Assembly (NCBI RefSeq): GCF_001310085.1
Contig: NZ_CP012643.1
Location: forward strand, 651,001-715,000
DNA length: 64,000 bases
Reading direction: 5' to 3'
From: Rufibacter tibetensis
GTDB taxonomy: Bacteria; Bacteroidota; Bacteroidia; Cytophagales; Hymenobacteraceae
The position numbers were made by a program, and so were the translations under genes. Position 1 is the stretch's first letter; each line of letters opens with the position of its first letter. Under the pieces are notes generated by a model. It was not told where the DNA came from. It saw only the letters and a program-made list of their open reading frames with translations, and did not search any database. Of this stretch, positions 53,778 to 62,314 are shown piece by piece.

Positions 53778-53918
53778 ACTATCTTCCTTCTTCATTATAT
53801 ACCCAAATTTGACAGAAAACGATGTTTTCTAAAGAGTCTGAAATTACTTCACCCTCCCTTTCACCCGCAAGTTATTTTAACTAATTTCACTCCGACAATA
53901 ACAAGGACTAGGAATGAT

Positions 53919-55253
53919 ATGATTAACCTTACCCTGCGGGTCACCGTCACCCTAGACAAAAAACGACGGAAAGGCCCTGAGTACCCCATCATCCTGCGCG
54001 TGCGCCTGGGGCGCAGCGAGGAGTTCACCGTCAATACGGGCCGCATAAGCGAAGAGGCGAAGTTCGACAATGGCCGCATCAAAGGCAAATCTTATCAGGC
54101 CAATGAGGATAATGCGCATATTGCACGCCTCAAAGCCCGGATTGAGAATACCTGGCATGACATGGTGCAAGCCAATGGTGGATTCCCCGTCCGCCTCCCC
54201 GACTTCCGTGTCCGGCTTGAAGAGGAAGCAGGCGTGAGCCGCAAACCCAAGACAAGCAATATCGACCTTATTCAACTTATAGGTCAATATGTACAGGAAC
54301 GGCATGCTGAATTGAGGCCTGGCACCTTGGACCAGATGCGAACTACCGTGACCATACTGGAGTCTTTCCTTTCCCACCACAAGCACGCAGGCCGCTACTC
54401 ATCGGAATTACGTAAGTTCGACTTCGATACGTACACCGCTCTCCGAAATTTCCTGGTGAGTGATTATCGGGGAATCAAGAAACGCGCCATGACCAATGCC
54501 TCCGTCAACACACGTCTGGCAAATCTAAAAGCAATGATCCGCTACTATTACGACAACGGCACCCCTGAGATCCGATCACAGATCAACTTGGACTTCATGC
54601 GCTTCAAACCTTTCAAGAGCGTGCTGAAGCAGCGGCAGGCGCTGAAGGAGGAGGAGGTGAATCAGCTCTGGGCCGAGGATCTCTCCGATGCCCCGCACCT
54701 GGAACGGGTACGCGATCTCTACATTTTCTGCTGTTTCACCGGCCTGAGACATGGTGATGCTGTTTCACTTAACAGAACGAATATAACACCTACCGGACCG
54801 GACCAGTTTGAGTTGCGATGGTACATGGGCAAGACCATGAAACCCAACTCAGTACCGCTCGTGGGCCCGGCACTTGAGATTATTTCCAAATACCGGGACA
54901 GGTACGTAACGCTGCTCCCTCCGCTCAAGAACAATCGTACGAGCGCCAACCTGCCTAAGCTATGGAGACGAATGGTATCCCGGATGCCTTCCCTGGCTGA
55001 AGTGGTCGAGGTGATTGACCAGAAAGGCAACATCCGCGAGGTCAAGCGAATGCCACGCTATGAGGCGCTGAACTTTCATACCTCGCGCCATACCTATGCC
55101 CGCATGCTGTTGGCCAAGGGTGCCCCTACTGAGCACGTGAAGGAAATGCTTGGCCAAAGCGACATCCGTACAACACAGATCTACGCCAAGACGAATGTGC
55201 AGATGGCAATCTCCTCCACGAGGCTTTTGCTTGAAATGGCAAAAAGAAAGTAA
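53919..55253 (+). CDS. Tyrosine-type site-specific integrase
   Basis: 444-aa recombinase of mobile elements. N-terminal arm-binding domain (INLTLRVTVTLDKKRRKGPEYPIILRVRL), a core-binding SAM-like domain at about 115-225, then the catalytic domain. Arg277 is in FTGLRHGDAVSL, Lys305 in MGKTMKP, H-x-x-R at 387-390 (HTSRH), and the nucleophile Tyr422 in TTQIYAKT. The usual second His before the Tyr is Gln here (EMLGQSDIRTTQ), a known variant position. It is the first gene after mutL, so the junction near 53.85-53.92 kb is one edge of an integrated element. It has its own terminator. Confidence 0.93.
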   Translation: MINLTLRVTVTLDKKRRKGPEYPIILRVRLGRSEEFTVNTGRISEEAKFDNGRIKGKSYQANEDNAHIARLKARIENTWHDMVQANGGFPVRLPDFRVRLEEEAGVSRKPKTSNIDLIQLIGQYVQERHAELRPGTLDQMRTTVTILESFLSHHKHAGRYSSELRKFDFDTYTALRNFLVSDYRGIKKRAMTNASVNTRLANLKAMIRYYYDNGTPEIRSQINLDFMRFKPFKSVLKQRQALKEEEVNQLWAEDLSDAPHLERVRDLYIFCCFTGLRHGDAVSLNRTNITPTGPDQFELRWYMGKTMKPNSVPLVGPALEIISKYRDRYVTLLPPLKNNRTSANLPKLWRRMVSRMPSLAEVVEVIDQKGNIREVKRMPRYEALNFHTSRHTYARMLLAKGAPTEHVKEMLGQSDIRTTQIYAKTNVQMAISSTRLLLEMAKRK

Positions 55254-55315: not shown

Positions 55316-57463
55316 TTGTCGTGTTTTCAGCCGGACCAGTGGTTCAACAGCCAATATTATGACAGCTGCGCATTCAAGGCTGAATGTGGGTGCCCTCATG
55401 TGCTATTACTTCGTATCGCAGCAAACGAGCAGATCGGGAAGGAGTTCCGCCTGCTGGCCAAGGCCAAGGAGCAGCTGGAGCGTTCCGACGAGCACATGGA
55501 CTACCGCGCGCTGAACACGGACATGACGCTGGGCGACCTGGAGGCCTGGGTGAAAAGCCAGGGCGAGTACTTCAACTCGCAGATGAACTGGGTGTTCAAG
55601 ACGATCCAGGACTACATGGAGCGCGTGAAGCACCGCTACATGCGCGAGTACATGCCGGGCAAGAACAAGTTCTTCGACGAGTACCACAAAGCCTGGGAGG
55701 CGGACGCGGCGAACGGCGCGGGCGCCGGGCGCTACACGCTCAACGACGCGACGGTCTACTACGAGAACCTGTTCAAGACCTACACCGGCGTGGACCCGCA
55801 GGGCAACGAGGTGGCCTTCAACAACTACGAGCTCAAGGATGAGTCCGATCCGAGCCTGCGCGCCTACGAGAGGGCGTTCATCAAGAACGTCAAGGCCGAG
55901 GTTGAGAAATCGGTGAAGGCCATCGTGGCCAAGAAGATCAAGGACGGCGAGATCGCCAACTACGCGTCGGCCGACGCCTGGTACGAGGACAACTACCGCG
56001 GGCAGGAGGGTTTGCTGCCGATCGTGACCGCCAACATGGGCGAGCGCCTGGCCAAGGGCAGCGTGAAGGGCGGCATCAACGCCTACGTGGAGCAGAACAC
56101 GAACTTCAACAACCTGTCGCTGGGCACGGAGAAGAACCTGAACCGCCGCAACGCCGCCGGGCTGGCCACGGCCAACATCGGCACGGGCTTCGGTTCCTAC
56201 GAGCGCATCGGGCGCCTGGGCCTGTCCATGGAGGGCGAGAAGGTCGTGGTGGCCGACCCGGGCCGCAACGCGAGCGGCTCCACGGACGTGCAGACCCTGC
56301 TCGACTACTTCGTCTACATGAACATGAAGATGGAGCACGAGGCGGAGTTCACCACGGTGCACGCGGCCGCCAAGACGATCCTCCTGACCCAGGAGGTGCG
56401 GGCGGGCAAGGACCGCGAGAACGAGCTCAAGACGCTGGACGCGGTCTTCGACCTGCTCATCTACAACGAGCGGCAGGAGATCCAGGCGGCCGGCAGGCTC
56501 AACCTGGCCAAGGTGGCCGACACCCTCAGGAACGTGACGACGGGGGCGACCCTTTCCTTCAACCTCCAGTCGGCGTTCCTGGCCACGTTCGGGGATATGT
56601 ACTCGATGTACTCGAACGCGCTGGCCAAGCGCTACGGGAAGGCCTTCTTCGGCGCCGGCGACCTCAACAAGGCGCTGGGGCTCATGGCCTCGGACAACAA
56701 GAAGTTCAACGATTTGATCGACCTGTTCCTTTTCCAGGACATGGACGAGAGCGCGCTGATCTTCTCCGACAAGTACAAGGAGGGCTACAAGGGCGTGGCC
56801 AAGTCGCGCTACTCGCGGATCCAGCAGCACATGGGCGAGCGGATGGTCAGGGGCATGCTCCTGGTCTCGCAGCTCTACCACGACGGGCTGGTCGACAAGT
56901 TCAGCTACGACGAGAACGGCCAGCTGTCCTACGACTGGAGCAGGGACGAGCGCGGCGCGATCGGCCAGACGATCCTTGCCAAGGTCCAGAGGCGCGGCAC
57001 GGAGTTCCTGCCGTACGATGACGTGATGCTGCGCTCGCTGAGCGCCATCGCGGGCAAGATGTACGGCGCCTTCAACGACGCCGAGCGCGGCCGGATGGAC
57101 ACCAACGCCATCGTGCAGTTCTTCGGGCAGTTCCGCAAGTTCATCGTGGCCCGGGGCAACGAGCTGCTGAGCCGCGGCTTCGAGAACGAGAACATCCGCT
57201 GGTACGAGATGATCGAGGAGGAAGGCGCGCAGAAAGTGAACGTGCGGCTGTTCTACCAGGAGGGGATCTACCAGTCCGTGGTGCACCTGTTCAAGGAGAG
57301 CAGGCGCCTGAGCGGGCAGGATGCGTCGGCGTGGCAGAGCATGCGCCCTGAGCAGCGGGCCAACATCCGCAAGCTGTATGATTATGTGACGGAGGGAGAG
57401 CTGCTAGAAGGAATCAAAGCTGACTGGATTGAATCCAGTCAGCTTTTGCTAAGCAGGGCTTAA
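55316..57463 (+). CDS. Fragment of a large phage- or mobile-element protein (unrecognised), strongly GC-rich
   Basis: 715 codons without a stop. The only in-frame upstream start is a TTG at 55316. The segment from about 55430 to 57360 is much richer in G and C, with third positions nearly all G or C, unlike all neighbours. Predicted protein is mostly helical and charged, with WVKSQGEYFNSQMNWVFKTI, YYENLFKTYTGVDPQGNEVAF, a hydrophobic Gly/Ser stretch (ATLSFNLQSAFLATFGDMYSMYSNALAKRYG) and QFFGQFRKFIVARGNELLSRG. This style resembles internal pieces of giant virion or polyvalent proteins of Bacteroidota phages and conjugative elements. That is only a resemblance. The first ~33 residues (CFQPDQWFNSQYYDSCAFKAECG) have ordinary base composition and may belong to something else. 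Confidence 0.45.
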   Translation: MSCFQPDQWFNSQYYDSCAFKAECGCPHVLLLRIAANEQIGKEFRLLAKAKEQLERSDEHMDYRALNTDMTLGDLEAWVKSQGEYFNSQMNWVFKTIQDYMERVKHRYMREYMPGKNKFFDEYHKAWEADAANGAGAGRYTLNDATVYYENLFKTYTGVDPQGNEVAFNNYELKDESDPSLRAYERAFIKNVKAEVEKSVKAIVAKKIKDGEIANYASADAWYEDNYRGQEGLLPIVTANMGERLAKGSVKGGINAYVEQNTNFNNLSLGTEKNLNRRNAAGLATANIGTGFGSYERIGRLGLSMEGEKVVVADPGRNASGSTDVQTLLDYFVYMNMKMEHEAEFTTVHAAAKTILLTQEVRAGKDRENELKTLDAVFDLLIYNERQEIQAAGRLNLAKVADTLRNVTTGATLSFNLQSAFLATFGDMYSMYSNALAKRYGKAFFGAGDLNKALGLMASDNKKFNDLIDLFLFQDMDESALIFSDKYKEGYKGVAKSRYSRIQQHMGERMVRGMLLVSQLYHDGLVDKFSYDENGQLSYDWSRDERGAIGQTILAKVQRRGTEFLPYDDVMLRSLSAIAGKMYGAFNDAERGRMDTNAIVQFFGQFRKFIVARGNELLSRGFENENIRWYEMIEEEGAQKVNVRLFYQEGIYQSVVHLFKESRRLSGQDASAWQSMRPEQRANIRKLYDYVTEGELLEGIKADWIESSQLLLSRA
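57416..57446 (+). terminator. Perfect hairpin inside the 3' end of the GC-rich frame
   Basis: AAAGCTGACTGGATT and AATCCAGTCAGCTTT are perfect 15-nt arms around one G, followed by TTGCT. It looks like a terminator but lies before the stop at 57461, so the listed stop may not be the native end of the gene. Confidence 0.6.
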
Positions 57464-57496: not shown

Positions 57497-58453
57497 TTAA
57501 TTTACAAAGGCTAACACAGGAAGATAATCCTGGGTAATACCAGATACTTTCAGCAAAGGAATTATCTGCTCTAACTCTAATAAATCCCGGAGAATGATCA
57601 AGTTTATTCCAGGCTCCCCATCCGGATCTTCAAATTCGTATCGGTCGTCCGGAACATGTAAACCGTCTCCAAAGTCCACGACATAATCATTAGCATAAAG
57701 CCATGCTAAATAAATAAAGCTTTTAATGTAATCTTCTGCACATTCACTCACCACGTAATATTTGTCCAGGTGTTTTTTACACGCCTCAATAATTGAGTCT
57801 GGAATTGCTTCGTACACAAACTCTCTAAATTCGATTTCCTCCTTATCTATCCCCTTTTCACTGATCACCTGATCCACATACTCAATAAATTGTTGATGGG
57901 CCAGTGCTTGTGCCAAAGGCTGATTTTCCAAATACAATTGCTCATCCTCTGTAGAAAAAAAAGGAAGATTATTATTCCAGTAAGCTACTATCTGCCCCTC
58001 GGACAGTTCAACAAAACTTAAGTTTAGGAGCTTATTCAACAAAAAGTTGTATCCGTCCCCTGTAGTTAGCGTTTCCAAATACCCGTTATCATGGACAAGC
58101 ACTACCTCCATCATATCACCCATTGCTGGAAAAACATCTTTTTCTTTGATCAGGGAATAAACCAGTTCTATGTATACCCAGTCTTTTGAGTGAATGCCAA
58201 ACTCAGACCTGTACCGCGGCTTATCATTACTCCCATCATGTTGTTTGTACAACAGGAAGCTTGCCGAAAGAACCGGTTCAATAATAACCTTATTAAGGGT
58301 AGCTGAAAAGAACCCATAATATTCATCTTCCCTGAAGCCAAACAAGGAATCAGAATGCTCCCATACCGCGTCATACACGCAGGGCAGAACTTCCTCTGAA
58401 CCTCTTTTCAACCCAAACTTCTGATTGTTCTCAACTAAGGTGTAACCGTTCAT
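57497..58453 (-). CDS. Hypothetical protein with WG-repeat-like N-terminus (318 aa), third gene of the sigma-54 operon
   Basis: Unrecognised cytoplasmic protein. The first 70 residues read like WG/KWG repeats (NNQKFGLKRGSEEVLPCVYDAVW, EDEYYGFFSATLNKVIIEPVL). The rest is acidic alpha/beta (FVYEAIPDSIIEACKKHLDKYYVVSECAEDYIKSFIYLAWLY), with an Asp/Glu-rich patch (FGDGLHVPDDRYEFEDPDGE). No signal peptide, membrane helix or catalytic motif stands out. It is the last of three minus-strand genes (205, 114 and 318 aa) that follow a sigma-54 promoter. The 98-nt gap after the 114-aa gene shows no terminator. Confidence 0.7.
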   Translation of the reverse strand: MNGYTLVENNQKFGLKRGSEEVLPCVYDAVWEHSDSLFGFREDEYYGFFSATLNKVIIEPVLSASFLLYKQHDGSNDKPRYRSEFGIHSKDWVYIELVYSLIKEKDVFPAMGDMMEVVLVHDNGYLETLTTGDGYNFLLNKLLNLSFVELSEGQIVAYWNNNLPFFSTEDEQLYLENQPLAQALAHQQFIEYVDQVISEKGIDKEEIEFREFVYEAIPDSIIEACKKHLDKYYVVSECAEDYIKSFIYLAWLYANDYVVDFGDGLHVPDDRYEFEDPDGEPGINLIILRDLLELEQIIPLLKVSGITQDYLPVLAFVN

Positions 58454-58551
58454 AGCTATAAGGGATTAGGCTGATTTGACTAGAATACAAACTACTTTTT
58501 TAGTATATACCAAGTTCATTTATGACAAAAAATAAGAGGACACAGGTATAA

Positions 58552-58896
58552 CTAGGCTTCTTCCTCTTCATCGGTTTCCACCTGAACCATGTACATCGTA
58601 TTCCAAACTTGCCCATAAGCACCATATTTATCACGTTGCAAGGGAGTGTCTGCAATCATGTTTTTGAAGTTGTCATAGTCGATGGACTCTGCAAGCTTTT
58701 GGAAAATAGCGGGGATGCTCTTTGCACCCACAATTACCCTGTACCGGTAGTCTGCAGATGGCCATACCTGGATAGGCTCCACCAGTTCAGCCGCAGTTAA
58801 GAGCTGCTCCAAATCTTGTTTTACCCTTGCCCTCACATGAAACCCCTCTTCCTTTACCACAATTGAGAAAAATCCGTATTTTGATGCTATCCACAT
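58552..58896 (-). CDS. Small conserved protein of unknown function (114 aa), second gene of the sigma-54 operon
   Basis: Begins MWIASKYGFFSIVVKEEGFH and shows V-R-A-R, then D-Y-R-Y-R-V, then Y-D-N-F-K, then Y-G-x-V-W-x-x-M-Y-x-V-Q. From memory, a similar pattern (MWxFTxYGFFS..., VRAR, DYRYRI, NFK, VWxxMY) occurs in widespread small hypothetical proteins, including many actinobacterial ones, so this looks like a broadly conserved family without an assigned role. The tail is acidic (ETDEEEEA). It lies 57 nt after the 205-aa gene. Confidence 0.75.
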   Translation of the reverse strand: MWIASKYGFFSIVVKEEGFHVRARVKQDLEQLLTAAELVEPIQVWPSADYRYRVIVGAKSIPAIFQKLAESIDYDNFKNMIADTPLQRDKYGAYGQVWNTMYMVQVETDEEEEA

Positions 58897-58953
58897 ATTT
58901 TTATAGTTTTGTTTTGTTTCAAATTAATTGACCTGCTCTCGCTGGAGTACTTT

Positions 58954-59571
58954 TCACAAGCATGTGTCTATAGCAAAGTGTCCTCCACCATACACTATGT
59001 AATGCCATTTCACCTGCTCGTCCTTCACCATTGGAAATAAAGCCAGGTACTCCTCTTGGGCACTTACTGCTACCTTGGAAAGCTTTTGCCCAAGTATTTC
59101 TTTGTACTGCTCCTGTTCAGCTTCCTCCAAAACAGGCAGTATGAGAATTTTCAGGACACCTTCCGACTTCATCAGCTTAGGCAAAACCCGCTTCAATTCG
59201 GCTGTGTCATGCACACGGGCAAATTGCAATACATCTACATCATCAAGCGCCTGCCGTACAACTCCAGCCTCTTCATCATGGTATTCCTGCTCGGGCTCTA
59301 ACGCGTAACCGGTTAAGTCAAAGTTTGAAAAATAATCAGTGGCAGCAATGTCCAACTTTTCACGTAGGCAATGCACCAACAACGTCTGCCCTATCACCTG
59401 GTAGTTATTGGCGTACAAGAGGTAATTCAGCCAATTGCTATTCCCTTTCTCATACTTCTGAAGCGCTGTTTTAACAATGCCACTCTCTTGAGCTAGTTCG
59501 TTAAAGCTCTTCCACATTTCTAAAAATTTGTTTGCGTCTACTTGCGTTGTAATGCTCTTTTCCATATTCAT
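58954..59571 (-). CDS. Hypothetical protein (205 aa), first gene of the sigma-54 operon
   Basis: Unrecognised acidic cytoplasmic protein (MNMEKSITTQVDANKFLEMW). The second Met (59565) is an alternative start. Mostly helical with a segment LQKYEKGNSNWLNYLLYANNYQVIGQTLLVHCLREK, an acidic middle (EPEQEYHDEEAGVVRQALDDVD) and a C-terminal KWHYIVYGGGHFAIDTCL. No known motif. The gene follows a near-consensus sigma-54 promoter by about 100 nt and faces the gene of a sigma-54 activator, so it is probably under that regulator. Confidence 0.7.
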   Translation of the reverse strand: MNMEKSITTQVDANKFLEMWKSFNELAQESGIVKTALQKYEKGNSNWLNYLLYANNYQVIGQTLLVHCLREKLDIAATDYFSNFDLTGYALEPEQEYHDEEAGVVRQALDDVDVLQFARVHDTAELKRVLPKLMKSEGVLKILILPVLEEAEQEQYKEILGQKLSKVAVSAQEEYLALFPMVKDEQVKWHYIVYGGGHFAIDTCL

Positions 59572-59681
59572 ATAAGTTTAAGTACTTGTCTACTCCAAAA
59601 GCATTATCGCTTTGGTCTATTGATTCTAATTTTGATTCTAATCTTAGCCATGTTGAGATAAGGTATATGTGATAAGAGATT

Positions 59682-59697
59682 TGCAAAGGCCATGCCA
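59682..59697 (-). promoter_or_regulatory. Sigma-54 promoter (-24 TGGCAT / -12 TTGCA)
   Basis: On the minus strand the site reads TGGCATGGCCTTTGCA, against the consensus TGGCAC-N5-TTGCA. GG and GC are 10 nt apart, as required. Predicted start is near 59672, about 100 nt before the 205-aa gene. Confidence 0.8.
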
Positions 59698-59808
59698 GTG
59701 GAGAAAAGGCGCTTAAACCACTAATTTGAGACCCTTCATCTATCAATCATATTGCATCCCATATCATTAATTGATATAATTACATTACCCATTACTACTG
59801 TAAGCATA

Positions 59809-59821
59809 GGTTCTCAGAACC
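59809..59821. promoter_or_regulatory. Perfect palindrome GGTTCT-C-AGAACC, candidate activator site
   Basis: Lies about 112-139 nt upstream of the sigma-54 promoter, a usual distance for enhancer-like activator sites, and about 50 nt before the activator gene. Binding by the activator is an inference. Confidence 0.45.
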
Positions 59822-59872
59822 CGTCAACCCTTATAATTTTAATCACAAATTTTTATACATTTTCCTTCTTTT

Positions 59873-61405
59873 ATGAGTCAACCTATACTATTCTCCTGGA
59901 TTGCCTGGAACAATGATTATGAATATAAAACCAACAATGTAGACCCCAAAGGGCCAAACAATACCATACATCAGCACTTCTACCCGAAGCAAAAGTACCA
60001 GAAGCATTACCTGCTTACCTCAGCTGCTTCAAGAGAGGCAGATGGTGGCAGAAGTGAGAAATTAGCTAAGTACCTGAACCACCAGTATGCAGATGAGAAG
60101 CATAAGGTTGAACTCCTATACCTGGACATTGAAAACGTGATTGACCCTGAGGAGATCATCTCGAAAGTACAGCCCTTGTTGTTTGAACAGAGAGCGCATG
60201 AAGTGCATGCTTTCATCTCCACGGGCACGCCCATGATGCAGGTGGCATGGGTGTCATTGTACATGGCGAAGGCAATACCCCACCTAAGACTGATCCAAGG
60301 AGTAGAAGCTTCTAAAACAAAAAGTAAATTCCCTGAATTTAATTTCAGGGAATTTACCCAATCACAGGGAGTACGGGCTCTATTTGTAAAGTCAACAGAA
60401 TCTATCCATTTCCCGGAGTCTGACGAAGGCTTTTTTGAAGCAGAGATCCTTAAACCAATCTACAAGAAAGCAGCCATGGCGGCCGCTGTGCCTAAGCGGG
60501 AGATCTCTGTTCTTATACAAGGAGAAAGCGGCACCGGGAAAGAACACCTGGCCCAGTTCATGCACCAGGCATCTGCCAGAAAAAACAAAAAATTCATAGC
60601 GGTCAACTGCGCCTCCATGGGAGACCACTTACTGGAATCCAGGTTATTTGGGTATGTCAAAGGAGCCTTCACAGATGCCCGGGAAGACTGCAAGGGCTAC
60701 TTTGAAGACTGTGACGGTGGCACCCTCTTTTTGGATGAGATTGGAGATACCAGTCCCCAATTCCAACAAAGTCTGCTACGAGTGTTACAAGAGGGGGTAA
60801 TTACGAGGGTTGGCAGCACTACACCAATCAAGGTAGATGTGAAAACCATTGCGGCTACGCATAAACACTTAAAAAGCCTTTGTGAGGAGAGCAAATTCAG
60901 ATGGGATCTCTACTATAGATTAACCACCGTAGAATTAAAATTACCTCCACTTAGGCACTATGCTAAGAACGACCGTGAAGGAATTTTAAACCACCTGATC
61001 AGCAGCCGTGCCGATTTTTTCGAGAAGAAACCTTTAGAACTTTCCAAGGAGGTAAAGACCGCTTTTATGAAATACTCCTTCCCCGGCAACATTCGGGAAC
61101 TGCAGCACATGATAGACAGGTGCTACATATTCTGCGAGGATGAAGCTGCTTTACAGGAAATTCCAGAGGAAATTACCCGCAACCCCCAAGAGTTCTCCTG
61201 GAAGATGGATGATATAAAAAAGACACATGTAACCAAAGCCTTAACTTTTTTTGACTACAATCTGTCTCGGACCGCCGATGAACTAGATATTTCCTATAAT
61301 ACTTTGGTTAAACATATAAAAACCATGAAGATAGATACTTCTAAAAGCAAAAATCCACTTGTGAAAGTGGGTAAACGTAAAATAGAAGAAGCTAAATTGG
61401 GATAA
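59873..61405 (+). CDS. Sigma-54-dependent activator with RtcR/CARF-like N-terminal domain
   Basis: 510-aa bacterial enhancer-binding protein. Residues 1-200 form a sensor domain with an S-T-G-T-P-M-M-Q loop (116-123) like the T-T-G-T-x-x-x-Q loop of RtcR and the ligand loop of CARF domains, which bind cyclic or linear oligonucleotides. The AAA+ core has Walker A GESGTGKE (217-224), GAFTDA (264-269) in place of GAFTGA, Walker B FLDEIGD (286-292) and Arg residues in FRWDLYYRL (343, 349). The C-terminal part ends in a Fis-like helix-turn-helix (NLSRTADELDISYNTLVKHIKTM, about 463-485). It is divergent from a three-gene operon with a sigma-54 promoter, its likely target. The best-known relative, RtcR, controls RNA repair; no rtcA/rtcB is present here. 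Confidence 0.88.
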   Translation: MSQPILFSWIAWNNDYEYKTNNVDPKGPNNTIHQHFYPKQKYQKHYLLTSAASREADGGRSEKLAKYLNHQYADEKHKVELLYLDIENVIDPEEIISKVQPLLFEQRAHEVHAFISTGTPMMQVAWVSLYMAKAIPHLRLIQGVEASKTKSKFPEFNFREFTQSQGVRALFVKSTESIHFPESDEGFFEAEILKPIYKKAAMAAAVPKREISVLIQGESGTGKEHLAQFMHQASARKNKKFIAVNCASMGDHLLESRLFGYVKGAFTDAREDCKGYFEDCDGGTLFLDEIGDTSPQFQQSLLRVLQEGVITRVGSTTPIKVDVKTIAATHKHLKSLCEESKFRWDLYYRLTTVELKLPPLRHYAKNDREGILNHLISSRADFFEKKPLELSKEVKTAFMKYSFPGNIRELQHMIDRCYIFCEDEAALQEIPEEITRNPQEFSWKMDDIKKTHVTKALTFFDYNLSRTADELDISYNTLVKHIKTMKIDTSKSKNPLVKVGKRKIEEAKLG

Positions 61406-61798: not shown

Positions 61799-62314
61799 AT
61801 GAGCAGAGAAGACTATCTCCACAAGCCAACCATCCGCACCAACCGCTATCTGTACCATGTCACTCCTTTTGACACCCGAGATGCCATAGACCGGCTGGGG
61901 ATTTTATCCCGCAATGATATTGGCCATGGCCCCCGATTTGGCTACCCGCCTGCCGTGTTCGCAAACAACACCTCAGTGGAAGAATACTTTATTTGGTGGC
62001 CCATTGTGGACTACTACTTTGACTACCTGTTCTCAGGCATAGACCCAGACCAGTTACTGTGGGAGTATGACATCTGGGAAATAGACACCAGAATAGCCAA
62101 TACCAAATGGTACGAAGATCCAGGTACTGGCTCCCAAAACAGTTCTGTCTTCGCCTTGGATGACATTCCCCGGGAGGCTATCCGATTGGTTCGGTTGGAA
62201 GGGGCAGAAAGAAGAATCCGATACAGTGATGGAGTAGCCTCTACTTACATCTGGAGCGGCATCACAACCGTGTTGCCCCGCCGGCCCAGGTACTTACTCC
62301 CATGTGTAAGGTAG
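61799..62314 (+). CDS. Hypothetical protein (171 aa), possible ADP-ribosyltransferase-like fold
   Basis: Unrecognised soluble protein. RYLYHVTPFDTRDAIDRLGILSRN resembles the L-Y-H-x-T ... I-x-x-x-G-L start of small ADP-ribosyltransferase-fold proteins (Tpt1/KptA-like and DUF4433-like). It is followed by PAVFANNTSVEEYF, a W/Y/F-rich middle (IWWPIVDYYFDYLF), LLWEYDIWEID, and ALDDIPREAIRLVRL, the last two being strand-like segments often seen in this fold. No catalytic assignment can be made by eye. It starts its own transcript and is followed by a hairpin and then the N-formylglutamate amidohydrolase gene. Confidence 0.5.
   Translation: MSREDYLHKPTIRTNRYLYHVTPFDTRDAIDRLGILSRNDIGHGPRFGYPPAVFANNTSVEEYFIWWPIVDYYFDYLFSGIDPDQLLWEYDIWEIDTRIANTKWYEDPGTGSQNSSVFALDDIPREAIRLVRLEGAERRIRYSDGVASTYIWSGITTVLPRRPRYLLPCVR

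Follow-up and report, generated by a model that had tools for sequence, protein, structure and literature searches.

The locus analyzed here, a gene for a sigma-54 activator facing a divergent three-gene operon, lies in a window of 64 kb (positions 651001-715000 of contig C1; positions below are those of the window) in the 5.41-Mb genome of a Rufibacter strain (Bacteroidota, Hymenobacteraceae). The products of the operon are called A205, B114, and C318 after their lengths in amino acids (aa). A first-pass annotation, made from the sequence alone, had described the activator and three divergent minus-strand genes, and all of its coordinates and sizes for them were correct. The features of the locus are as follows.

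59873-61405, plus strand: activator gene, 510 aa, a CARF-AAA+-helix-turn-helix (HTH) sigma-54 activator of the RtcR_PspF2 branch (PADLOC PDLC01995; Sigma54_activat)
59873-60382, plus strand: N-terminal CARF-like sensor domain, about residues 1-170 (29-sequence alignment, PDB profile search)
60470-60937, plus strand: sigma-54 interaction AAA+ domain (Walker A GESGTGK, Walker B FLDE, GAFTDA loop)
61220-61318, plus strand: predicted C-terminal, DNA-binding, Fis-type HTH (PF02954, E 6.4e-4 and 19.8 bits; gathering score 22)
59809-59821, no strand assigned: second inverted repeat GGTTCTCAGAACC, a possible extra operator
59761-59777, no strand assigned: enhancer-like palindrome ATATCATTAATTGATAT (minus-strand reading)
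59682-59697, minus strand: predicted sigma-54 (-24/-12) promoter of the operon, TGGCATGGCCTTTGCA
58954-59571, minus strand: operon gene 1, A205, 205 aa, without a family in Pfam, NCBIfam, PADLOC, and PHROGs scans
58552-58896, minus strand: operon gene 2, B114, 114 aa, a small alpha/beta protein, widespread and unnamed
57497-58453, minus strand: operon gene 3, C318, 318 aa, of a Hymenobacteraceae family
57416-57446, no strand assigned: strong stem-loop terminator with a 14 bp stem

The gaps within the operon are 57 bp (A205 to B114) and 98 bp (B114 to C318), and the terminator closes the operon 50 nt past the C318 gene. The guanine-plus-cytosine (GC) content of the locus is 0.42 and that of the window is 0.48.

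The activator and its predicted promoter

The PADLOC profile RtcR_PspF2 CARF_AAA_HTH (PDLC01995) matched the activator over its full length with an E value of 1.7e-135 (residues 4-487; profile positions 2-480 of 481), and the matches to the PADLOC profiles RtcR_PspF1 (8e-63) and RtcR (8e-46) were far weaker. The NCBI model of RtcR itself, NF038308, aligned with residues 5-448 and gave a score of 253.8 bits, where 650 is required. This is far under the cut-off, and the RtcR_PspF2 branch was matched instead; the activator is not RtcR. The ATPase domain was recognized by the Pfam family Sigma54_activat (E 5.8e-62) and has the sigma-54 ATPase signature of Walker A and B motifs and a GAFTGA-type loop; the GAFTDA form of this loop is a variant of the signature that recurs in other activators.

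The sensor domain was compared with 28 relatives. The resulting alignment of 29 sequences kept the CARF motifs SW.A..ND[FY] at strand 1 and [SN].G...MQ.[AS]W at strand 4. The STGTPMMQ loop, in which the first-pass annotation had seen a CARF-like element, spans residues 116-123, occupies the strand-4 loop position and is largely conserved among the relatives. A profile of the domain retrieved four PDB sequences at an E value of 10 or less (E 0.2-0.43), all of them DUF1887 proteins, which are CARF proteins, aligned over their N-terminal part. The motifs and the profile search support the assignment of the N-terminal domain as a probable CARF-type sensor.

A near-consensus sigma-54 promoter upstream of the operon had also been claimed, and TGGCATGGCCTTTGCA was confirmed on the minus strand with exact GG-N10-GC spacing. 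It matches the pattern TGGCAYRN4TTGCW without mismatch and is the only such site in the 64 kb (0.11 expected); the whole genome has two, and a reversed-pattern control found four. Sigma-70-like sites were not above chance (8 found, 10.3 expected), a count limited by the departure of housekeeping promoters in Bacteroidota from the consensus used. In 11 of the 21 divergent spacers examined for the activator family, that of the window included, the best sigma-54-like site surpassed at least 98% of mononucleotide shuffles (p<=0.02).

The palindrome ATATCATTAATTGATAT contains, at 59763-59775 and with one mismatch, the element ATCAATNATTGAT, which adjoins the activator gene in the spacers of many relatives. 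There it is often paired, with starts 20 bp apart in five relatives (L048, L049, L089, L091, and L097) and 21 bp apart in another (L090). The element was first spotted by eye in the relatives, so its counts there are not independent evidence; the test was confined to the window, where its presence had a p of 0.005 against the shuffled spacer. The spacer here holds one ATCAATNATTGAT element and one sigma-54 site. About 66 bp separate the element from the promoter downstream of it, a distance that would suit an enhancer. Arm length by itself gave no significance to the inverted repeats of the spacer, and the 6-bp arm of GGTTCTCAGAACC had a p of 0.53, which is not significant alone. A sigma-54 promoter combined with an activator site in the divergent spacer recurs in many RtcR_PspF2 relatives, and this combination appears to be present here as well. 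Taken from these sequence features, it is highly probable that the activator switches the operon through sigma-54.

Defense context of the activator family and of the island

The CARF domain has homologs in 25 further genomes among the 390 searched in the order, in two more of the phylum, on a Hymenobacter plasmid, and in additional members of the family Hymenobacteraceae. For 27 relatives from the Bacteroidota, the two genes closest to the activator on either side matched 381 PADLOC families at an E value of 1e-10 or less, and the corresponding neighbors of 18 ordinary sigma-54 activators matched 38, most of which represent one kinase-like family. This comparison was of 107 with 72 proteins, and it indicates enrichment rather than proof since many of the PADLOC models are for generic helicases and methylases. 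Neighbors that were checked individually include a type I methylase (L048), HmaA (L084), a DpdF/C3a193-like helicase (L089), a type I restriction enzyme (L097), and a CBASS nucleotide cyclase with a HORMA protein (L086). In L107 (1781-8102), the activator adjoins a Csx1/Csm6-like CARF-HEPN gene, which was likewise checked individually, and an AAA ATPase. The partners of RtcR_PspF2-branch regulators are many and different. A defense gene directly beside the activator is a tendency of the family and does not define it; in the window, the three adjacent genes had no PADLOC match.

Two side observations concern these relatives. The CARF sigma-54 activator is directly upstream of the nucleotide cyclase and HORMA genes, a CBASS-like arrangement, in L086 (6446-9642) and, as judged by similarity, in L088 (9141-12381). 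A Csm5-like gene lies farther along in L107 and was recognized by eye only.

RtcR-like CARF activators unlinked to rtc genes are often associated with restriction-modification systems (Makarova et al., 2014; PMC4012209), and CoCoNuTs are linked to RtcR homologs (PMC11090510). Because these studies already place such activators beside defense genes, the kind of regulator is known and our survey widens the list of its partners. In the literature, we found no report of a ligand for CARF-sigma-54 activators or of a direct promoter test of them outside Rtc.

The locus is part of an island. About 0.4 kb separates mutL from a gene for a 984-aa protein in eight other genomes of the genus, and in the genome of the window this distance is about 54 kb (C1:704,795 to 758,883; window position 53795 onward). 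An island of about 54 kb is inserted between mutL and the 984-aa gene and is absent from the eight sister genomes. The activator, too, was missing from the other genomes of Rufibacter that were searched. A tyrosine integrase (53919-55253, plus strand; PHROG integrase, E 2.9e-33) is at the mutL edge of the island. Besides the locus, the island contains DISARM DrmA and DrmB, a piece of a Mokosh-like helicase, and a ShosA-like DprA, these defense genes being about 10 kb or more from the locus, as well as an ADP-ribosylglycohydrolase, a DUF2130 protein, and a second C318-type gene, a paralog. AddAB-like genes were also noticed in the island by eye.

Two further open reading frames flank the locus. 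The first (55316-57463) encodes 715 aa without a convincing family, is richer in GC than the window (about 0.64 and 0.48) and is probably a fragment of another mobile element. The second (61799-62314) encodes a 171-aa protein (YLYHVTPFDTRDAI...) that looks ADP-ribosyltransferase-like by eye and has no Pfam match; in three Pontibacter-group genomes, relatives of 167-171 aa (E 1e-70 or better) are encoded close to the activator.

Cargo proteins and their distribution

The first-pass annotation had recognized no function in the three operon genes, and scans of the Pfam, NCBIfam, PADLOC, and PHROGs libraries agreed, placing none of A205, B114, and C318 convincingly in a family. None had a match in PADLOC (2023) at an E value of 1 or less, so the cargo matches the proteins of no anti-phage system catalogued there.

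A205 has relatives only in Pontibacter chinhatensis (62%), Pontibacter sp. HSC-14F20 (40%), and Rufibacter psychrotolerans (36%), although the scan of genome contigs used only two peptide patterns and may miss distant relatives. None was found in the plasmids and phages searched, and viral contigs scanned for A205, C318, and the CARF domain yielded no relatives. The AlphaFold2 (AF2) model of A205, built from four sequences, was poor (pLDDT 61), and Foldseek returned nothing under an E value of 0.01. Partial matches to Era-like GTPases (E 5e-4 to 1e-3) were weak and were judged to be chance, as A205 has no P-loop. Gene groups for SMC-like ATPases, Wadjet-like by eye, were seen near the Pontibacter relatives of A205 (L127:1-4288 and L146:139-5267).

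B114 has at least 91 relatives in viral contigs, and its AF2 model, a small alpha/beta protein, was confident (pLDDT 94). It had no clear fold match: the best Foldseek match had an E value of 0.09, and VIA-align gave Z scores of 6.6 to a chain of a nucleotide-excision-repair complex and 5.8 to CASTOR1 over about 60 residues, a range where chance arrangements are common. The B114-type domain is fused to an ADP-ribosylglycohydrolase in L052 (9711-11138) and to a NUDIX domain in L111 (4001-5185). On account of these fusions only, there is a hint that B114 acts around ADP-ribose or NAD chemistry. B114 relatives also occur near a MavL-type ADP-ribosylhydrolase and a Sir2 protein (L112) and about 1 kb from an ADP-ribosylglycohydrolase (genome G587).

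Matches of C318 to NusA_N, CG0192, and ATP synthase b were at chance level or of low complexity, and Pfam gave no support to the idea, formed by eye, that its N terminus consists of WG repeats. A recurrent cluster encoding proteins of 252, about 130, about 128, and about 290 aa surrounds C318 relatives in Rufibacter and Pontibacter islands (L128, L129, L130, L131, and L132). Several of these clusters also encode a transglutaminase-like protein, and the one cluster that was scanned had almost no Pfam matches.

Among 150 genomes of the Hymenobacteraceae, the activator was detected in 11 and B114 in four, all four of which have the activator (1.6e-5 if independent, although three of the four belong to one genus and the island is shared). 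A205 was convincing in four genomes, three of them with the activator, and the C318 family was found in seven, four of them with the activator; the seven include the window's own genome, where the same-island paralog also belongs to the family. A205 and B114 are within about 3 kb of each other in both Pontibacter sp. HSC-14F20 and P. chinhatensis, with the activator 34-42 kb away. In G587, a C318 relative is 11 kb and B114 is 26 kb from the activator. On a plasmid of Hymenobacter sp. DG25B, the fifth gene upstream of a CARF activator encodes a C318 relative, so that four genes separate the two.

A proposed sensor-gated switch with undescribed cargo

These results are best explained by a defense-type transcription switch with new cargo, in which a CARF-gated activator controls an undescribed accessory operon that serves as an inducible anti-phage or conflict module; we give this reading a probability of roughly 0.6. 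The activator would wait in an inactive state until a nucleotide or RNA-end ligand, arising from phage infection or nucleic-acid damage, bound the CARF domain. Its AAA+ ring would then assemble on the palindromic site or sites in the shared spacer and open RNA polymerase-sigma-54 at 59682-59697. Transcription of the three genes would follow, ending at the 57416-57446 terminator. The operon itself would be an accessory module of narrow (Hymenobacteraceae) distribution within the defense island. The CARF-type sensor, the sigma-54 output, and the divergent uncharacterized operon of the first-pass annotation were borne out by the family profile, the motifs, the promoter, and the library scans. The antiviral setting it suggested is plausible given the defense-linked regulator family (Makarova et al., 2014; PMC4012209; and the neighbor survey above) and the location in a defense island. 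Its observation was correct, and its interpretation was right in broad lines.

The claim that the operon defends against phages draws on the associations of the regulator and on the island setting, not on any cargo domain, and we consider it somewhat better than an even chance. A more specific version, in which the operon is an undescribed anti-phage system, composed of families outside the searched catalogs and kept off until an infection ligand sensed by the CARF domain triggers sigma-54 transcription, is a tentative proposal, rated slightly short of even. Several points weigh against a sensor-gated defense module. The CARF-domain match in PDB is weak (best E 0.2), although all hits are of one kind, and a recognizable effector domain is present in none of the three cargo proteins. 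In P. chinhatensis, a stop interrupts the B114 copy and C318 is truncated. The first-pass annotation had held that the three genes should co-occur with the activator, and this was true in part: three Pontibacter genomes have cargo and activator homologs on one contig, about 10-45 kb apart, and the Hymenobacter plasmid has a C318 homolog at closer range, but the same trio adjoins the activator in no other genome searched. Co-occurrence at tens of kilobases in related Pontibacter genomes may reflect a shared island hotspot and not a functional link.

The activator resembles those of the RtcR_PspF2 branch (Makarova et al., 2014; PMC4012209) in domain order, in its full-length profile match, and in the kind of genomic setting, whereas its cargo is neither a restriction-modification system nor any catalogued defense system. 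With RtcR of the rtcBA RNA repair operon, which is constitutively active without its CARF domain (PMC9650030), it has in common a CARF-like N-terminal domain, a sigma-54 AAA+ domain, a sigma-54 target operon, and an upstream activating sequence (UAS); it differs in its score under the RtcR cut-off and in its place in a defense island, and its divergent genes, without a Pfam or NCBIfam family, are not rtcA or rtcB. CoCoNuTs likewise have an RtcR-like CARF activator beside antiviral genes (PMC11090510), but the cargo here has no McrBC or CoCoNuT genes and is divergent, whereas theirs is a downstream superoperon. WYL-domain regulators of defense operons also gate defense gene transcription by a sensor (general knowledge and PMC4012209), by means of a WYL-winged HTH protein rather than sigma-54 activation.

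The trio might instead protect or maintain the island, by addiction or competition between bacteria, with the activator recruited along with it. The integrase at the island edge, the low GC content of the locus, the patchy and decaying copies in Pontibacter, and the frequency of B114 in phage contigs would fit such a module. No toxin-like gene or antitoxin pair was recognized, however, control by a sensor and sigma-54 is unusual for addiction modules (general knowledge), and the defense context is strong, so we consider this explanation unlikely. A response to RNA damage, in which the activator, like RtcR, would sense RNA ends (2',3'-cyclic phosphate) and the trio would belong to an undescribed pathway of RNA repair or tolerance rather than to defense, draws on the RtcR-type architecture, on the long alignment with the NCBIfam RtcR profile, and on passages in PMC7790460 and PMC11090510 that tie RtcR to damaged tRNA or RNA ends. 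An RNA-repair reading was not supported, given the low RtcR score, the match to the RtcR_PspF2 branch, whose relatives adjoin DNA-targeting defense genes, and cargo that matches no RNA enzyme family in Pfam or NCBIfam; this explanation is quite unlikely. Adjacency without control, with the activator serving another gene and the operon read from its own housekeeping-sigma promoter, would agree with the absence of the trio beside activators elsewhere and with the widely differing partners of the branch. It is very unlikely in view of the near-unique sigma-54 site oriented to the operon and the UAS-like element in the spacer; the lack of an excess of sigma-70-like sites is a weak argument in the same direction, the Bacteroidota consensus being different.

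For the sensor-gated switch, what is new is the uncharacterized cargo and the promoter and enhancer signature found across the family, and what is not new is the kind of regulator. The shared sigma-54 site and the paired ATCAATNATTGAT element would provide a ready-made reporter with which to find the infection signal. They can also serve to flag unknown defense operons by their regulator, with the trio as one candidate. The occurrence of the family beside CBASS and a Csm6/Csx1-like gene leads to the testable idea that the activator listens to cyclic oligonucleotides.

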